A stretch of 64,000 nt of DNA. Origin: an uncultured Haliea sp. (lineage in GTDB: Bacteria; Pseudomonadota; Gammaproteobacteria; Pseudomonadales; Halieaceae). The position numbers were made by a program, and so were the translations under genes. Below are positions 3,378-54,835 of the stretch, in pieces. How positions within the stretch are numbered: position 1 is the stretch's first letter; each line of letters starts with the position of its first letter. The notes beneath the pieces are model-generated. The model made no database searches and was not told where the DNA came from. It saw only the letters and a list, made by a program, of their open reading frames with translations. The stretch lies in assembly GCA_913061145.1 (NCBI GenBank), contig CAJXUQ010000004.1:124001-188000 (forward strand), in the 5' to 3' direction.

Positions 3378-4886
3378 TTGTCGCACCCTGTACAACCGCC
3401 TCTCGCCGACGGCAGCCTGCTGGCAGCCGTCGACCTGGGAAGCAACTCCTTTCACCTCATCGTCGCCCGCGTCGAGCATGGCGAAATGCGCCCGGTCGAG
3501 GCACTGGCAGAGAAAGTCCAGTTAGGGGCGGGGCTGGTGGATGGAAGACTGTCCGCGGACGCCATCGCACGTGGCCTCGACTGCCTGGCTCGCTTTGCAC
3601 AAATGCTCGGCAGTGTCGATCCGGAGCGCATCCGCGTGGTAGGCACCAACGCCCTGCGCATGGCTGACAACCGCCGGGAGTTCACCCTGCCCGCCCAGCG
3701 GATTCTCGGGGCGCCGGTCGATGTGGTGTACGGCGGAGAAGAAGCTCGCCTGGTTTACCTGGGGGTGGCCCACACGCTGGCCGACGACGCCCAGTCACGG
3801 CTGGTCATTGATATCGGCGGCGGCAGCACCGAGCTGATCATCGGCCAGCGGTTTGAACCCCAGCGGCTGGAAAGCCTGCAAATGGGTTGTGTCTCCTATT
3901 CGGACAGCTGCTTTCCCGCGGGCAAAGTGAGCCGTAGTCACTACCGCGCCGCGTACGAGCGGGCCCGGCTTGAGGTTTCCCACATCCGCTATCACTTTCA
4001 CTCACGCCACTGGGCAGAATGTGTGGGCTCCTCCGGCACATTGCAGGCCATTGAATCGGTGCTGGTCAGCCAGGGCTGGAGTGAGGGAGGGATTACACGC
4101 AAGGCACTGGCGAAGCTGGAAAAGCGCCTGTTGCAGTTCAAGCACTTCGATGCCATTGAGCTGGAGGGGTTGAGCAGCCAGAGACGCAACGTCATCGCGG
4201 CCGGTGTCGCCATTACCAGCGCCCTGTTCGATGAGCTGGGCATCACGCAGCTGCGAACTTCACGGGGTGCACTTCGCGAAGGTGTGATCTACGACCTGAT
4301 GGGGCGCCTTGGGCACGAAGATGTGCGTGAACGCACCATCAATGCGCTGATGCAACGCTACGGCGTGGACACGGTCATGGGGGAGTTGATGGCCCGTCGA
4401 GCGCGCACCCTGTTCAACGCCAGTCGCGATGGCTGGTCACTGCGCAGAACCGACCGCGACCTCCTGGAACGGACGGCATTGACGCACGAGATCGGCATGG
4501 CCATCTCACACAAACACTACCAGCGCCATACCGCCTACCTGCTGCAAAATGCCGACCTGCCCGGGTTCTCCCAGGAAGAGCAGGAGCAGATGGCGCTTCT
4601 CGCCGCCACACAGCGTGGCAAACTGGACCATCCGCTCTGGGCTGGCGTGGCCGAGAGCGATCGCCCCCGTCTGCTGCGCCTGGTCACCTTGTTCCGGCTG
4701 GCGCTGCTGTTCAAGTACGTCGAACAGCTGGAGGCCCTGCCCGACTTTGCCGTGCATGCGCACGAGGACAGTATCAGCCTGGAGTTTCCGCCGGCGTGGC
4801 TACAGCGCCACCCGCTTACGGCGCGGGAACTCGAGCAGGAGGTGACGTTGCTCGGCAAGGAAGGCCTGCACCTCGCTATCCACTGA
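3378..4886 (+). CDS. ppx: Exopolyphosphatase / guanosine pentaphosphate phosphatase (Ppx/GppA)
   Basis: A 502-residue member of the ASKHA-fold Ppx/GppA family, normal length for proteobacterial Ppx. Nucleotide/phosphate-binding signatures are AAVDLGSNSFHLIVAR near the N-terminus, VGTNALRMADN around residue 93, and VIDIGGGSTELIIG around residue 145. The C-terminal half holds an HD-like helical domain. The enzyme removes terminal phosphate from polyphosphate and/or converts pppGpp to ppGpp. The only in-frame start that keeps the N-terminal motif at the usual distance is a TTG, with a weak upstream binding site; an upstream ATG at 3340 is out of frame. Ppx versus GppA cannot be decided by eye. 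Confidence 0.9.
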   Translation: MSHPVQPPLADGSLLAAVDLGSNSFHLIVARVEHGEMRPVEALAEKVQLGAGLVDGRLSADAIARGLDCLARFAQMLGSVDPERIRVVGTNALRMADNRREFTLPAQRILGAPVDVVYGGEEARLVYLGVAHTLADDAQSRLVIDIGGGSTELIIGQRFEPQRLESLQMGCVSYSDSCFPAGKVSRSHYRAAYERARLEVSHIRYHFHSRHWAECVGSSGTLQAIESVLVSQGWSEGGITRKALAKLEKRLLQFKHFDAIELEGLSSQRRNVIAAGVAITSALFDELGITQLRTSRGALREGVIYDLMGRLGHEDVRERTINALMQRYGVDTVMGELMARRARTLFNASRDGWSLRRTDRDLLERTALTHEIGMAISHKHYQRHTAYLLQNADLPGFSQEEQEQMALLAATQRGKLDHPLWAGVAESDRPRLLRLVTLFRLALLFKYVEQLEALPDFAVHAHEDSISLEFPPAWLQRHPLTARELEQEVTLLGKEGLHLAIH

Positions 4887-4892
4887 CGTAGA

Positions 4893-4906
4893 CGGCCTCG
4901 TGGCCG
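4893..4906. terminator. Short GC-rich hairpin between convergent genes
   Basis: A perfect 5-bp stem, CGGCC and GGCCG around a TCGT loop, lies in the 21 bases between the convergent stops of ppx and the hydrolase gene. It lacks a T-tract on either side, so it is only a possible weak terminator for both. Confidence 0.3.
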
Positions 4907-4907
4907 C

Positions 4908-5897
4908 TCACGGCGACAGTTGGGCGTCCTGACTGACGATATCAGCGAGGTAGTCGAGGAGGATCTCGTTTACCGCATCCGAGGCCTCCAGCTGGACCAT
5001 GTGTCCAGCACCCGGAATCATGCGCACCGCACGCAGCTGTGGAAAGATGGCCCGCATCTGGCCGATCGGGTCTTCACCGTGAAAGCCCTCGAGATCGACA
5101 TCGTGCTCGCTGCCCAGGAAGTAGGCAGGCACCGCACTTTGCACCCCTTCAAACGGCTTGCGCTGCGCCCACTTGAGGTCAAACGCACGGTACCAGTTGA
5201 GTCCCCCGGTAAAGCCAGTACGACTGTATTCGGCGACGAAGAACTCCAGCTCGAGCTCCGACAACCACGGCCAGGGCAGCGGTGGCGGCTCCTCCATGGC
5301 ATCAATATAGGACGTGCCCGGCGGGTGACGGAACATGTCAAAGTAATTGCAGGCCCCGCTCAGCGTATGGAACACCTTGTGTAAAAACCGCCGGGGCTGC
5401 GCCGCCAGTTCCCGATCTGCGCGCGGCGGTTCACGGAAATACTCGATATGCAGGAAGTGCTGTTCGCCCATGCGCCGGTATTCCGTGAGCGGCGGCTCAT
5501 CCGGGTTGTGCGGCGCGGCCGGGTTCTCCAGGCCAATCACGGCAATCACCCGCTCCGGGTGACGCAGGGCAAGGTCGTAGACGGCAAAGGCCCCGAAATC
5601 CAGCCCAGCGAACACGGCCCGAGGCTCGCCGATATGCTCCAGCAGGCCGACCAGGTCCGCCGTGATGTGATCGATATCATAGGCCTGCAGCGGCAGCGGC
5701 GCCTCGGTCTGCCCCATACCGCGCATATCCGGCGCAATTACCCGATAACCGGCCTGCGCCAGTGCACTGATCTGGCGATGCCAGCTGAACCAGAGGTGGG
5801 GAAAACCGTGGCAGAGCACCACCGGCACGCCGGCTCCCTGCTCCACATAGTGCATGCGGATGCCGTTGATGGTGGCATGGTGGTGTGTCCATTTCAT
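4908..5897 (-). CDS. Epoxide hydrolase-like alpha/beta hydrolase
   Basis: A 329-residue alpha/beta-hydrolase. The oxyanion region HGFPHLWFSWHRQ, the nucleophile elbow GLDFG (nucleophile D100, where most relatives have GHDWG), and the C-terminal acid/base elements GSEHDVD and GAGHMVQLE are all visible. An aspartate nucleophile together with a lid segment FTGGLNWYRAF containing a tyrosine matches soluble epoxide hydrolases better than haloalkane dehalogenases. The reaction would be addition of water to an epoxide through an alkyl-enzyme ester. It stands alone, convergent with ppx and divergent from the DUF2254 gene. The natural substrate is unknown. Confidence 0.8.
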   Translation of the reverse strand: MKWTHHHATINGIRMHYVEQGAGVPVVLCHGFPHLWFSWHRQISALAQAGYRVIAPDMRGMGQTEAPLPLQAYDIDHITADLVGLLEHIGEPRAVFAGLDFGAFAVYDLALRHPERVIAVIGLENPAAPHNPDEPPLTEYRRMGEQHFLHIEYFREPPRADRELAAQPRRFLHKVFHTLSGACNYFDMFRHPPGTSYIDAMEEPPPLPWPWLSELELEFFVAEYSRTGFTGGLNWYRAFDLKWAQRKPFEGVQSAVPAYFLGSEHDVDLEGFHGEDPIGQMRAIFPQLRAVRMIPGAGHMVQLEASDAVNEILLDYLADIVSQDAQLSP

Positions 5898-49628: not shown

Positions 49629-52600
49629 ATGCGCGCGTTTATCGGCTGGTGGGTACACAATCCGGTCGCTGCCAACCTGCTGATGGTGGGCATCCTGCTC
49701 GCTGGCGCCCTCGGTTTCGTGAGTATGGAGCGCGAGGCCTTTCCCCGCTTTGAGATCAACCAGGTCGAGATTGAGGTCACCTGGCCGGGGGCAGCCCCGC
49801 AGGAGGTCGAGGAGCAGGTCGTACTGCGTATCGAGGAGTCTCTCGATGACCTCGACAATGTCAAACGCGTCTCCTCTACGGCCTCCGAGGGTCTTGCCAG
49901 GCTGGAGGTCAGCACCTGGCCCGGCGTGGACCTCGAGCAATTCCTGAACGATGTAAAGAATCGTGTGGATGCAGTGACTGCGCTGCCGCGGGACATCGAG
50001 CCCCCGCGGGTGAAACGCAGCGACTTCCGCGAAGAGATGATCCGCGTGGCCGTGCACGGCGAGGTCAGCGAACGTGAGCTCACGCGACTGGCCGAGGACC
50101 TGCGCGACGAGGTGGCCGCACTCCCCTGGATCTCACTGGTCGAGCTGTTCGGCACGCGCCGCGAGGAAGTCACTATCGAGCTGTCCCAGGCCGCCATGTT
50201 GCGCTTCGGCGTCAGTTTCGATGAGGTCGCCAGCGCGATCCGTGGCAGCTCCATCAACCTCTCCTCTGGCCAGGTCAGGACCGCTACGGGTGATGTGCGG
50301 CTGCGCGTGCGCAATCTTGCCGACAACAGCGAGGACTTCAGCCAGATCGTGCTGCGCCAGAATGCAGAGGGCGCCACCGTGCGCATCGGCGATGTCGCCC
50401 GGGTGATTGACGGCTACGAAGAAAATGAAATTCTGGCCACATTGAACGGCGAGCCCGCGGTCCTCATACAGATCCTGTCAACCGACAACATGCAGGTCGT
50501 GAAGGCCAGCGCGGCGGTCAAGGCGTGGATGGAGAAAACGCGCCCCACGCTCCCCGCGGGAATCAGCCTTACCCTCTGGTTTGATACTGCAGACATCTAT
50601 GAAAGCCGCATGGACCTGATAGGCAGTTCGGCCTGGCTGGGGCTGATGCTGGTATTTCTCGTCCTGATCATGTCACTGCGCCCCAAGGTTGCCCTGTGGG
50701 TAACTGCCGGTATTGCAGTCGCCTTTGTGGGCACCTTCGCGGTCCTGCCAGCCAACGATGTCTCGCTCAATGTCATGTCCACGTTCGCCTTCCTGCTGGT
50801 ACTGGGCATTGTGGTGGACGATGCCATTGTCGTGGGCGAGAGCATTCACCAGCATGCCCACGCCGGCGGCGGCATCGACGCGGCGATTGACGGCGCCTAT
50901 GCCGTCGCGCGCCCCGTGGTGTTCGCGGTGCTCACCACCATGATCGCCTTCGCGCCCTGGTTTTTCGTGGACATCGAAGGCGGCAACATGACGCGCCAGT
51001 TCTCCATCGTCATTACCGCGGCGCTGACCATCTCCCTGATCGAGGCATTCTGCATACTGCCGGCCCACCTGCGCCACCTGGAACACCGTGAACACCTCGG
51101 CCCCTGGCGGCTGCGCCAGCGACGCTTCGAAGAGGGTATCGTCGCTTTTGCCAACACCCGCTATCGCCGCCTGCTTGCGCTGGGGACCGACTACCGTTAC
51201 CTGACCGCCAGCCTGTTCACCGCAGCCTTCATCCTCAGCCTTGGCGTGTTCGGTGCCGGCTGGGTCAAGTTCACCTTTTTCCCCGAGGTGCAGAACGAAC
51301 AGGTTCACATCAATGTGGTGATGCCCAGCGGTGCCCCCTACTCCCGCTCACTGGCCGTCCTGGCGCGGCTGCAGGAAGCCGAGAAGCAGCTGATTGCCGA
51401 AGTGGAGTCACAGGCCGCCGCCGAGGGTGGCAGCGGCTCCCTGGTGGAGGGCTGGTATACGCGCTCCCGACGCGACAGTGTCATCGCCATCGTCAGCCTG
51501 TCGCCACCGGAAGAACGGGCGTTGTCTGCCCGCGAGACCGCCGAGCGTTTCCGCGAGTTGGTGGGCGACATCCCGGATGCGGAAGAGATCGAAGTCAGCT
51601 ACACCCTTAACGACCAGGGCGCGGCCATCACCTGGGTGCTGCGGCACCGGGACCTGGACGTCCTGCGCGCTGCGAGCAACGACCTGCAGGCCCAACTGCG
51701 CAGCTATCAGGGCAGTTACTACGTGCGCGACAGCCTGCGGGCCGGGAGTGAGGAAATACACCTGAGCCTGCGTCCGGGCGCCGAGAAACTGGGCATCAGC
51801 CTTGCCGATGTATCGCGCCAGGTACGCCAGGCCTATTATGGCGAGGAAATTCAACGCCTGCCCAGGGAGCACGGTGATGTCCGGGTGATGCTGCGCTACC
51901 CTGCGGAACTGCGCGCACAGCTTGCAAGCCTTGACAGCTTCCGGGTGAGGACCGCGGACGGACGTGAAATCCCCCTGCTCGCCGTGGTAGATGTGGAGGT
52001 CAACAACGCTGTGGACCGGATCCAGCGCCAGGACGGCGAGCGCATGGTGCGCATCTCAGCGGAGGCCGCGCCGGAGCTGGCCAGCGACATGAACAAGGAC
52101 CTCAAGGAGAACTTCCTGCCCGTACTGCAGGAGCGTTATCCGGACCTGGTGATCCTGCGCGGTGGTGAGCAGGAAACCGAACAGGCGTTCTTTGACGAAA
52201 TCATCGCCCTCTACGCAGTAGCGCTCTTCGCCATGTATGCGCTGATCGCCGTGGCCTTCCGCTCCTACGCGCTGCCCCTGCTGATCATGACGGCGATTCC
52301 CTTCGGCTTCATGGGCGCCGTCTACGGACACCTGCTGTTCGCAACCCCCATGGCGCTGTTCTCGTACTTCGGCATCGGCGCCGCGGCGGGTGTGGTGGTG
52401 AATGACAACCTGGTGCTGGTGGACTACATCCGCCGCTTGCGTGAGCGCGGCGCATCCGCGGCTGACGCTGTGCTGGAGGCAGGGGTCGCCCGTTTCCGGC
52501 CCATTCTGCTGACCACAGTGACTACCTTCGTGGGCCTGCTGCCCATCATGGCGGAGCGCTCCACCGACGCACAATTCCTCAAACCCGCAGTCCTGTCGCT

Positions 52601-52760
52601 GGCCTTCGGCGTGCTGTTTGCGCTGTTGGTCACGCTGCTCATGGTGCCCGCGCTTTACCTGATCGGGGAAGACTGTGCAGGGCTCGCCCGACGCCTGCTG
52701 CCCGGGTTGGGCGAGCGACCCCAGGCACCGCAGAACGTCGCCACCCAGCCAGAGCGGTAA
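49629..52760 (+). CDS. RND efflux pump permease
   Basis: A 1043-residue AcrB-type permease with the usual two halves, each of six membrane helices plus a large periplasmic loop. TM4 carries the proton-relay pair in GIVVDDAIVVGE. In TM10 the position of AcrB Lys940 appears to be Asn in GVVVNDNLVLVDY, as in some non-AcrB clades. Opening MRAFIGWWVHNPVAANLLMVG is typical of this subfamily. It starts on the base after the adaptor stop. Substrates are unknown; no local repressor gene is seen. Confidence 0.92.
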   Translation: MRAFIGWWVHNPVAANLLMVGILLAGALGFVSMEREAFPRFEINQVEIEVTWPGAAPQEVEEQVVLRIEESLDDLDNVKRVSSTASEGLARLEVSTWPGVDLEQFLNDVKNRVDAVTALPRDIEPPRVKRSDFREEMIRVAVHGEVSERELTRLAEDLRDEVAALPWISLVELFGTRREEVTIELSQAAMLRFGVSFDEVASAIRGSSINLSSGQVRTATGDVRLRVRNLADNSEDFSQIVLRQNAEGATVRIGDVARVIDGYEENEILATLNGEPAVLIQILSTDNMQVVKASAAVKAWMEKTRPTLPAGISLTLWFDTADIYESRMDLIGSSAWLGLMLVFLVLIMSLRPKVALWVTAGIAVAFVGTFAVLPANDVSLNVMSTFAFLLVLGIVVDDAIVVGESIHQHAHAGGGIDAAIDGAYAVARPVVFAVLTTMIAFAPWFFVDIEGGNMTRQFSIVITAALTISLIEAFCILPAHLRHLEHREHLGPWRLRQRRFEEGIVAFANTRYRRLLALGTDYRYLTASLFTAAFILSLGVFGAGWVKFTFFPEVQNEQVHINVVMPSGAPYSRSLAVLARLQEAEKQLIAEVESQAAAEGGSGSLVEGWYTRSRRDSVIAIVSLSPPEERALSARETAERFRELVGDIPDAEEIEVSYTLNDQGAAITWVLRHRDLDVLRAASNDLQAQLRSYQGSYYVRDSLRAGSEEIHLSLRPGAEKLGISLADVSRQVRQAYYGEEIQRLPREHGDVRVMLRYPAELRAQLASLDSFRVRTADGREIPLLAVVDVEVNNAVDRIQRQDGERMVRISAEAAPELASDMNKDLKENFLPVLQERYPDLVILRGGEQETEQAFFDEIIALYAVALFAMYALIAVAFRSYALPLLIMTAIPFGFMGAVYGHLLFATPMALFSYFGIGAAAGVVVNDNLVLVDYIRRLRERGASAADAVLEAGVARFRPILLTTVTTFVGLLPIMAERSTDAQFLKPAVLSLAFGVLFALLVTLLMVPALYLIGEDCAGLARRLLPGLGERPQAPQNVATQPER

Positions 52761-52953: not shown

Positions 52954-53223
52954 ATGAACAGCGAATTTAACGCAGAAGAACGCTTTCGGCGCACCGTGGG
53001 CGACGTTGTAGTCGCGGAGATGCTGTTTATTCAGGCTACGGTGGAAAGCGCCTCGGTGATCGGCTCCGGACTGCAGGAGCTCGGGCACCACCTGCTCGCC
53101 GCGCCCAGCGATCCCCGCCAGCCCATTGGCTCCATCGCCAGCCTGCTGCAGGCCACTGCCGATCGCGCGCTGGAACCCTACAGCACCCGGTTCGGTTACT
53201 TCCGCCAGCTCCGGGAGCTCTAG
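52954..53223 (+). CDS. Hypothetical 89-residue protein
   Basis: I do not recognise this protein. It is 89 residues, mostly helical in composition, with charged ends (MNSEFNAEERFRRTVGD and FGYFRQLREL) and no signal peptide or membrane segment. A GGGAGA binding site precedes the ATG. The TAG stop coincides with the first bases of the 167-bp palindromic element, so the original 3' end could have been altered by its insertion. The upstream gap of 193 bases after the RND pump holds no other gene that I can support. Confidence 0.55.
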   Translation: MNSEFNAEERFRRTVGDVVVAEMLFIQATVESASVIGSGLQELGHHLLAAPSDPRQPIGSIASLLQATADRALEPYSTRFGYFRQLREL

Positions 53224-53386
53224 CAGCCTGTCGGACTTAGGGCATCGTCGCGAGGCGTGTGGGAATCGAGGACAGAATGTCGATCGTTTGAGGCGAATAG
53301 TGGTGACTATTTAACGAAAACGAGCGGGATTCTGGACCGATTCCCATCAGCCGCAGCAGATGAGCCTAGGTCCGACAGGCTGCTAG
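53220..53386. repeat. 167-bp near-perfect palindromic element, MITE- or REP-like
   Basis: The ends are inverted copies: CTAGCAGCCTGTCGGAC at the left and GTCCGACAGGCTGCTAG at the right, one mismatch over 22 bases. Pairing continues inward with blocks such as GGGAATCG and CGTTT to a central hairpin AATAGT, loop GGTG, ACTATT at 53296-53311, the exact midpoint. No transposase is encoded. It lies between the 89-residue gene and the DUF1244 gene. Confidence 0.85.
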
Positions 53387-53393
53387 GCAGGCT

Positions 53394-53681
53394 TCAGTCG
53401 CGGCGAACGGCCTGCAGCGCTGCCAGTTGCTCCGGCGTCGCCTCGGTCTGGTAGCGCGACTTCCACTCGTCATAGGGCATGCCGTAGATACGCGCCCGCG
53501 CCTCGTCGCGGCTGAGGGCCACACCCTCCTCTGCCGCCGCTTCGGCATACCAGTTGGCGAGGCAATTGCGGCAGAACCCGGCAAGGTTCATCAAATCGAT
53601 GTTCTGCACATCCTTGCGCTGATCCAGATGGGATAGCAGGCGACGAAAAGCCGCCGCCTCGATAGCGTGTTCCTGTGACAT
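53394..53681 (-). CDS. DUF1244 domain protein
   Basis: A 95-residue soluble protein of the DUF1244 family, recognised by GFCRNCLANWYAEAA with two cysteines and by IYGMPYDEWKSRYQ. Such proteins are small, helical and conserved in proteobacteria with no proven function. It ends eight bases from the palindromic element and lies 23 bases downstream of a LuxR-type regulator on the same strand, so the two may be co-transcribed. Confidence 0.85.
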   Translation of the reverse strand: MSQEHAIEAAAFRRLLSHLDQRKDVQNIDLMNLAGFCRNCLANWYAEAAAEEGVALSRDEARARIYGMPYDEWKSRYQTEATPEQLAALQAVRRD

Positions 53682-53704: not shown

Positions 53705-54835
53705 CTAGTCGCCCATTGGGGCGACACTGCTCAGAATCAGTTGTACCAGACGCGTCTGCCGGGTGACACCCGTCTTCGAAAAGATGGCGCTGAGATGGGA
53801 TTTCCCGGTGTTGCGGGAAATGTGCAGGCGCACGCAGGCTTCGTCCAGCGTTGCGCCCCCCGCCAGTAGCAGGCTCAGGGTGGCCTCGGCACGGGTCAGC
53901 CCGAACAGGGTCATCAACACATCCACCGGTGCTTCGCGCTGATATTCCGGATCCGACACAAAAACGGCCACGGACGGATTGCGGCTGCCATCCGGTGCTG
54001 CCACCAACGGCAGTGGCCGCATCAGCAGGCCGGGGCCCGGACTGCTGCCACTGTCCAGCCGGAGGGCCTTGACCAGGCCTGGCTCCCCACGCAGGTGCGC
54101 CTGCATGACATCATCCAGGCACTCCCGGAATGCCTGCTGGTCGCTACGATGCACCAGGCGCAGCTGCCCCTCGTGCTGCGTCAGCCAGCGGCCTTCAGCC
54201 AGCAGGCGCTCGCCGGCGCTGTTGCTGTGTCGAATCCGCGCCCGCCGGTCCAGAATGAACGCACCCAGCGCCATGCGGTCCACCGCTGCCGCGAACAGCG
54301 TACGCTCGCTCTCCACCCGCGCGATGCGCGCGTGCAGACGGATCGTCTGCTGAATATGGGGCAACAGGCAGCGGGCGAGCTCGCGCTCCGGTGCCGCGAA
54401 ATTGGTCCGTCCTGCGACCCGGGCAAAGCGCAGGCGTGCGGTATTGCCGAGTTCATCACCCAGATCTGCACCCATAATATGCCTGATACCGGTGGGCTCC
54501 ACGTATTGCCGGAAATAGGCTGACTGGTAGTACTCGCCGGGGGGCATAAAGGCATCCACGGTGAAGACCTCACCCGGCGGCAGGTTCACGAAGGGGTCCA
54601 GGGCAAAGTAGCTCTCGTTATAGGCGTTCACCGCGTCCGGGGAGAGCACCACGGAATTGATGACCAGCCCGCTATCCCCCTCGCGCGGTGCGCGCAGGAT
54701 CAGCGTGACGTAGTCGGCATCCAGCGCCTCCCCCAGCAGGCGCAGAAACGCCTGCCAGGGAGGGTCTGCTAGCGGGCCTCGCGAAAGCGCCAGCAGCAGC
54801 TCATTCATGGGGGCCGAAATCAGATATTCGCGCAT
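53705..54835 (-). CDS. LuxR-type transcriptional regulator
   Basis: A 376-residue regulator whose C-terminal 65 residues form a LuxR/FixJ helix-turn-helix (FGLTRAEATLSLLLAGG, then HISRNTGKSHLSAIFSKTG). The N-terminal 300 residues resemble a GAF/PAS-like sensing module but no named domain is certain. There is no receiver domain aspartate pattern, so it is not a two-component response regulator. The start at 54835 lacks a strong binding site; ATG 10 codons later is an alternative. Possible targets are the adjacent oxidoreductase, MFS and SDR genes. Confidence 0.8.
   Translation of the reverse strand: MREYLISAPMNELLLALSRGPLADPPWQAFLRLLGEALDADYVTLILRAPREGDSGLVINSVVLSPDAVNAYNESYFALDPFVNLPPGEVFTVDAFMPPGEYYQSAYFRQYVEPTGIRHIMGADLGDELGNTARLRFARVAGRTNFAAPERELARCLLPHIQQTIRLHARIARVESERTLFAAAVDRMALGAFILDRRARIRHSNSAGERLLAEGRWLTQHEGQLRLVHRSDQQAFRECLDDVMQAHLRGEPGLVKALRLDSGSSPGPGLLMRPLPLVAAPDGSRNPSVAVFVSDPEYQREAPVDVLMTLFGLTRAEATLSLLLAGGATLDEACVRLHISRNTGKSHLSAIFSKTGVTRQTRLVQLILSSVAPMGD

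Follow-up and report, generated by a model that had tools for sequence, protein, structure and literature searches.

The window analysed here, a 64,000-nt stretch of DNA from an uncultured Haliea sp., carries between two convergent ORFs a near-complete palindrome of 167 bp that is a MITE, inserted at CTAG with duplication of the CTAG. The best explanation, to which we assign a probability of roughly 0.6, is that this MITE was moved in trans by an IS1182-family transposase and that its interior is a conserved folded device. According to this model, the transposase would act on the non-autonomous element through terminal repeats of ∼20 bp, and insertion at CTAG would duplicate the CTAG. The interior, unlike an IS remnant, would be a device with a long stem bearing compensating changes and with asymmetric internal loops. 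One strand of defined polarity, either RNA or exposed single-stranded DNA, would most likely be the one that folds, and a widespread protein might recognise it through the loops, allowing an element that sits mostly behind gene ends to spread or persist. Short bacterial palindromes have mostly been treated as dead IS ends. The present finding names a likely partner family as well as loops and stems that can be mutated, and the role of such palindromes is now directly testable.

Structure, insertion site and neighbouring genes

The inverted-repeat arms of the element (53220-53241 and 53365-53386) are 22 nt long, 95% complementary with one mismatch and separated by a spacer of 123 nt. The midpoint of the central GAGGCGAATAG...CTATTTAACGA hairpin lies at 53303.5, compared with 53303 for the element as a whole, and no transposase-sized ORF was found inside 53220-53386. 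These features agree in full with the palindrome originally predicted, namely 167 bp with 22-base ends carrying one mismatch, a hairpin at the midpoint and no transposase. The element folds as a single hairpin of -107.4 kcal/mol, and none of 200 dinucleotide shuffles reached this energy (mean -52.3, sd 4.1; z -13.5). Its + strand, which contains GAGGCG...TAACGA, is the better-folding strand. The parts of the element and the two adjoining ORFs are listed in Table 1.

Table 1. Coordinates of the element, its parts and the adjoining ORFs in the window
Feature	Position	Strand	Basis
MITE with both CTAG copies	53220..53386	+	Inverted repeat, fold
Left CTAG of the target duplication, containing the TAG stop of the 89-residue gene	53220..53223		Unoccupied sites of G001 and G003 with one CTAG each
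Right CTAG of the target duplication	53383..53386		Empty-site comparison
Left terminal repeat, CAGCCTGTCGGACTTAGG	53224..53241	+	Inverted-repeat search; similar ends on IS1182 copies L170 and L175
Right terminal repeat	53365..53382	-	Inverted-repeat search
Left side of the conserved internal loop, GTCGCGAGG here; family mostly GTAGCGAG(G)	53247..53255	+	Alignments; outside the search pattern
Right, facing side of the loop, CCGCAGCAG here; family mostly CGCAG(T/C)AG	53351..53359	+	Alignments; outside the search pattern
Central hairpin GAGGCGAATAG...CTATTTAACGA with 2x2 internal loop	53290..53317	+	Alignment; equals the search key, invariance partly by selection
Adjoining 89-residue ORF, stop untouched by the insertion	52954..53223	+	ORF list, empty sites
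Adjoining convergent 95-residue ORF	53394..53681	-	ORF list

The genome of the host (3.5 Mb, 53 contigs, 97.8% complete) contains two full copies that are 99% alike. Both insertion places were found without the element in two congeners, G001 and G003. The empty versions of the window's site read GAGCTCTAGACAGGC in G001 and GAGCTCTAGCGACC in G003, and those of the second copy's site read GGTCGCTAGGCCCGG and GGTCGCTAGAACTT, respectively. Because each empty site has a single CTAG and each filled site has two, the element inserted at CTAG and duplicated it. The copy count and the comparison of sites proposed with the original prediction thus gave two copies, with empty sites in both congeners at both places, and not a single copy present at the same place in all relatives. 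Being short, free of a transposase gene, bounded by terminal inverted repeats, present in multiple copies at sites that are filled or empty, and flanked by a target duplication, the element belongs among the MITEs. This was one of the two classes first suggested; two copies, filled and empty sites and the ends of an IS family all favour it. The other, an over-long REP-type unit, was not upheld for this genome, which gave no Y1/RAYT match, but may apply in other genomes, as 6 of 8 core carriers of the order show some Y1 match. The two empty sites fit duplication of CTAG, and variant ends such as TTAG/CTAG, seen in 4 of 101 elements of the wider family, fit duplication of TA. Ends other than CTAG differ chiefly at the outermost base, which TA duplication fits better than CTAG; the duplicated unit may therefore be either CTAG or TA. 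At the empty sites of G003 (L201 and L155), 8 and 16 bases are missing directly to the right of the CTAG; these two cases are possibly traces of imprecise loss.

The element had also been proposed to supply the stop codon of the 89-residue gene and to have altered that protein on its arrival. The ORF does end in the TAG of the left CTAG, but this TAG is already present in the empty sites of the congeners, and the protein was therefore unchanged by the insertion: the element-free G001 and G003 read GAGCTCTAG, with the same stop at the same codon. Further out lie a 1043-residue ORF upstream (49629-52760), which from its look we take to be an RND-type exporter, and a 376-residue ORF downstream (53705-54835), presumably a LuxR-type regulator on the same grounds.

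Conservation of the fold, strand polarity and genomic placement

The family was collected with the core pattern GAGGCGNATAGNN{2,7}CTATNTAACGA as search key, scanned over genome contigs and viral contigs, which gave at least 116 stretches in the former and 2 in the latter. The 147 core matches in loci were narrowed to 101 distinct elements, for each of which both ends could be reached and no fewer than 12 of the 16 end bases were complementary. Length and end filters reduced these to 70 and removal of near-duplicates to 51, from which 27 were picked by hand for an alignment (A3). The core pattern served to select almost every locus, and part of the invariance seen in the core columns therefore follows from this choice; neither the stems nor the outer loop motifs belonged to the key.

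When the window element's own fold was applied to the 27 aligned elements, 86.8% of the cells were paired, and 53 of the 67 pairs changed on both sides. The number of cells with changes on both sides reached 354, compared with 128 ± 10 in 500 shuffles (none as high) and with 134 and 159 when the partner was slid by one column. The consensus fold gave 402 of 1663 cells, a figure that is partly circular since this fold derives from the same alignment. Asymmetric internal loops were kept across the family, including GTAGCGAG opposite CGCAGTAG, outside the search key; the 2x2 core loop, which is part of the key, was kept as well. The matched changes in both arms suggest a role for the folded strand as such.

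Wobble pairs were counted in the 51 non-redundant elements on strand-neutral pairs, that is, pairs at least 70% Watson-Crick, taken from the folds of both strands. G-U occupied 155 cells and A-C 44, with G-U exceeding A-C in 41 sequences and the reverse in 3, and the sense strand had the better fold in 51 of 51 elements. The terminal repeats alone showed a smaller excess (G-U 51 vs A-C 26). This strand-polar wobble points to one strand acting as RNA or single-stranded DNA, and is an argument against conversion between the arms as well as against a cruciform that is read from either side. Together, compensating changes and polar wobble across distant bacteria constitute evidence for selection on the folded strand, presumably for a function of the fold.

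Arm-to-arm conversion would likewise yield paired changes, and the element might on that account be a plain MITE of IS1182 or of another transposase, with a stem that covaries through conversion or template switching and a fold that does nothing. Copies lacking the hairpin, which occupy three places in G003 and a single one in G017, would agree with this explanation, given that the hairpin is dispensable for a copy to exist. However, conversion should erase mismatched loops, yet the loop outside the search pattern is kept, and it should not raise G-U above A-C. We consider this explanation unlikely, although it fares best among the alternatives.

To analyse placement we used 91 elements with enough flank, of which 3 fell within an ORF and 4 at the edge of a locus and were set apart. 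The flanking ORFs of the 84 scored elements were convergent in 26 cases, divergent in 9 and tandem in 49, the genes being crude ORFs and copies from one genome being left unthinned. The CTAG of many elements overlaps a stop codon. Tandem placements comprised 28 in sense and 21 in antisense, with no orientation bias by transcription, and GC skew, positive in 55 of 104 locus windows (p = 0.63), revealed no replication-strand bias. With ori and ter of G270 located by eye on the basis of 20 samples, 7 of its 12 copies fell on one side. As neither transcription nor GC skew showed an orientation bias, there is no sign that the fold acts in read-through RNA.

These placements bear on a slightly less probable alternative, in which the element is a transcribed structured RNA gene, regulatory or an sRNA, that is mobile by chance. 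The better fold of one strand and the wobble bias would suit such a gene, and MITEs of Coxiella yield sRNAs according to the available text of PMC5896051. Against it, sense and antisense placements are alike, and Rfam 15 gave no match of note: no family was matched among 10 loci, and two hits, to a plant microRNA family and a snoRNA family, stayed below the gathering score (E 0.032 and 0.092).

IS1182 as the candidate partner

The proposal of a MITE moved in trans with a conserved folded interior calls on a transposase that shares the element's ends. Scans of viral contigs for these ends gave 9 loci. One of them, L170, contains a complete IS at ∼4335-5872 that has CTAG on either side and CTAGCAGCCTGTCGGACT as its ends; its transposase was assigned to the IS1182 family (NCBIfam NF033551, E 2.5e-108). 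Another, L166, has one end of a different type, CTAGGAGACTGTCCGAGAATA, ∼0.5 kb beyond IS1182-type ORFs; the opposite end was looked for at this locus and not found. Five other viral-contig loci had no IS1182-type ORF within 2.3 kb inside the end, and at L172 and L173 the contigs stop too close to the end to show one. With the L170 protein as query, matches at E 1e-10 were obtained in 6 of 24 chosen genomes. They included G017, a MITE carrier from the host's family, in which an IS1182 copy with its ORF in two pieces (L175) lies between CTAGCAGTCTGTCGGACTT ends ∼1.6 kb apart, and G059 (Nitrosomonas), whose copy (L176) has one end CTAGGAGTCTGTAGGACTTA. Terminal repeats like those of the element are thus found on IS1182 copies at L170, L175 and L176. 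A transposase with terminal repeats of this kind, the search for which was proposed with the original prediction, exists elsewhere but not in the host, whose genome has no IS1182 match with either the L170 protein or NF033551.

Other carriers gave a similar picture. No match to the single L170 protein was detected in G003 or G008, and none to NF033551 in G270 or G119 despite their 12 and 10 exact cores. At E 1e-3, NF033551 was found in 4 of the 8 core carriers of the host's order (G047, G124, G185 and G321) vs 152 of 293 genomes overall, with no association between IS1182 presence and core carriage over the 293 genomes; one core carrier, G124, is above the NF033551 cut-off. Adjacent inward-facing ends at IS spacing (0.5-5 kb) were absent from the full list of 49 matches in G270 and from the matches listed for G119 and G003. 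Nor was an autonomous copy recognised by inward-facing ends among the matches listed for 3 of the 14 genomes chosen for the end search. The family has further end types, GGGTCTGTTGACA and AAGCTGTTTCATAA, and among the matches listed for the four genomes searched with the former, inward-facing ends likewise revealed no IS. The ORFs around the elements were also grouped in search of a resident transposase; the groups, of 16 loci at most, were defined by clustering alone. Three compared copies in G270 differ by one or two bases, and movement there is therefore recent. Either an IS1182 partner comes and goes, or a different enzyme uses the same ends; judged by the shared ends and target, IS1182 would be the most likely partner.

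The least probable alternative is a REP/REPIN-like element whose single-stranded hairpin would be mobilised by a RAYT (Y1) transposase that recognises the loops. In its favour, the hairpin is polar, many copies occur without any IS copy, and Y1_Tnp is matched to some extent in 6 of the 8 core carriers of the order (seven matches in G270). Against it, the host genome and G124 have none, Y1 occurs in 176 of 293 genomes anyway and does not pick out carriers, the matches of three among the six carriers are weak (E 2.5e-4 to 9.2e-4), the ends match a DDE family, and the CTAG is duplicated, whereas IS200/IS605-type enzymes are not known to duplicate their target.

For movement by IS1182 there is precedent in Methanosarcina acetivorans, where the accessible part of PMC3852290 describes IS1182-family MITEs of 160 bp (14 copies, IR 26, DR 4) and 169 bp (7 copies, IR 25, DR 0) with ISMac2 as partner; these are archaeal, unlike our host, and were likened to the element by description alone. 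Between them, this text and that available of PMC3281130 document IS1182 MITEs and a 4-bp repeat. IS1182 MITEs as such were thus already known, and what is new with respect to Rfam and the papers searched is the widespread covarying family.

Distribution of the family and likeness to known elements

Matches at E 1e-3 were obtained in 8 of 58 genomes searched, comprising the host, G003, G008, G017, G030, G034, G047 and G054. G003, of the same genus, has three full copies as well as three places with short forms of 62-64 bp, and G008 gave 14 matches, the best with 78% identity; matches in the remaining five were weaker. Counting both genera in which they occur, the short forms span 62-65 bp (L191, L193 and G003:C18:24840-24901 in G003, the last known by match coordinates only; L194, ∼1684-1748, in G017). 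The central hairpin is absent from them, but the right loop motif CCGCAGCAG and the two ends are retained.

The core pattern reached much further. Labels of the sequences carrying it include Halomonas, Pseudomonas, Marinobacter, Thiotrichaceae, Nitrosomonas, Methylomonas, Mariprofundaceae, Legionellales and Desulfobulbaceae, as well as single MAGs labelled Nitrospinota, Aminicenantes, Bacteroidetes and Alistipes, where the labels may be wrong. Within the host's order the exact core was present in 8 of 293 genomes, with 12 copies in G270 (100% complete, 2 contigs) and 10 in G119. The end pattern occurred in 12 of 14 chosen genomes, with a maximum of 142 forward and 135 reverse matches in one genome of 2.8 Mb, compared with 0 or 1 for the reversed pattern used as control. 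A Legionellales MAG had 172 matches to its own end type with one mismatch allowed, and a single-query search of E. coli genomes gave no match. Many draft contigs end within the hairpin (L020, L025, L026, L031, L034, L055 and contigs of G336), which the hairpin itself explains; copy numbers in drafts are therefore undercounts.

We tentatively raise a broader possibility. The family could be a structured, selfish nucleic acid present in much of the Proteobacteria and perhaps outside them, in which a single polar hairpin with fixed internal loops travels under different terminal repeats (GGAGCCTGTCGGACTTA, GGAGGCTGTCCGAGAATAG, GGGTCTGTTGACAATTG and AAGCTGTTTCATAACTC). The core, and not the ends, would then be the lasting unit, and its folded form would be read by a common transposase or host protein.

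The family was not described in the open-licence literature that we searched for MITEs, palindromes, CTAG, YPAL, IS1182 and conserved MITE structure, and core and end strings sought there returned chance strings only; the string gaggcgaatag in a P. syringae paper sits in a primer. Several known elements resemble it in outline, as far as the available texts describe them. YPAL/RU-2 of Yersinia is 167-168 bp long, palindromic, mobile and intergenic, with no known transposase in the accessible parts of PMC2229807 and PMC2759123, and its target duplications are 3-26 bp, vs CTAG here. Kinship with YPAL was rejected, as there was no sequence likeness (local score 15 vs a shuffled mean of 16.9) and no profile match. 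QMITE2 of Coxiella burnetii (150-190 bp, TIR 23-29, one long hairpin) likewise has large and short forms and lies mostly in 3' regions, but its direct repeats measure 7-11 nt and vary in sequence from site to site; the comparison is by description only (available text of PMC5896051 and PMC10969869). ERIC and Correia elements are also 100-200-bp repeats with inverted ends, target duplication and hairpin transcripts, and, again compared by description only, their ends are TA, unlike those of the element (PMC2229807, in part).

An unannotated copy lies on a conjugative Pseudomonas plasmid (NZ_CP034782.1, 140983-141149), and such a plasmid is a possible vehicle for the family; the window element itself gave no plasmid match. 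A second subfamily, found via its ends, was observed in G270 next to the common one. In 6 of 12 fetched stretches (L210, L211, L214, L216, L220 and L221) its core reads GAGGTGAATAG...CTATTTACCGA, a variant in which each side of the core loop is altered.
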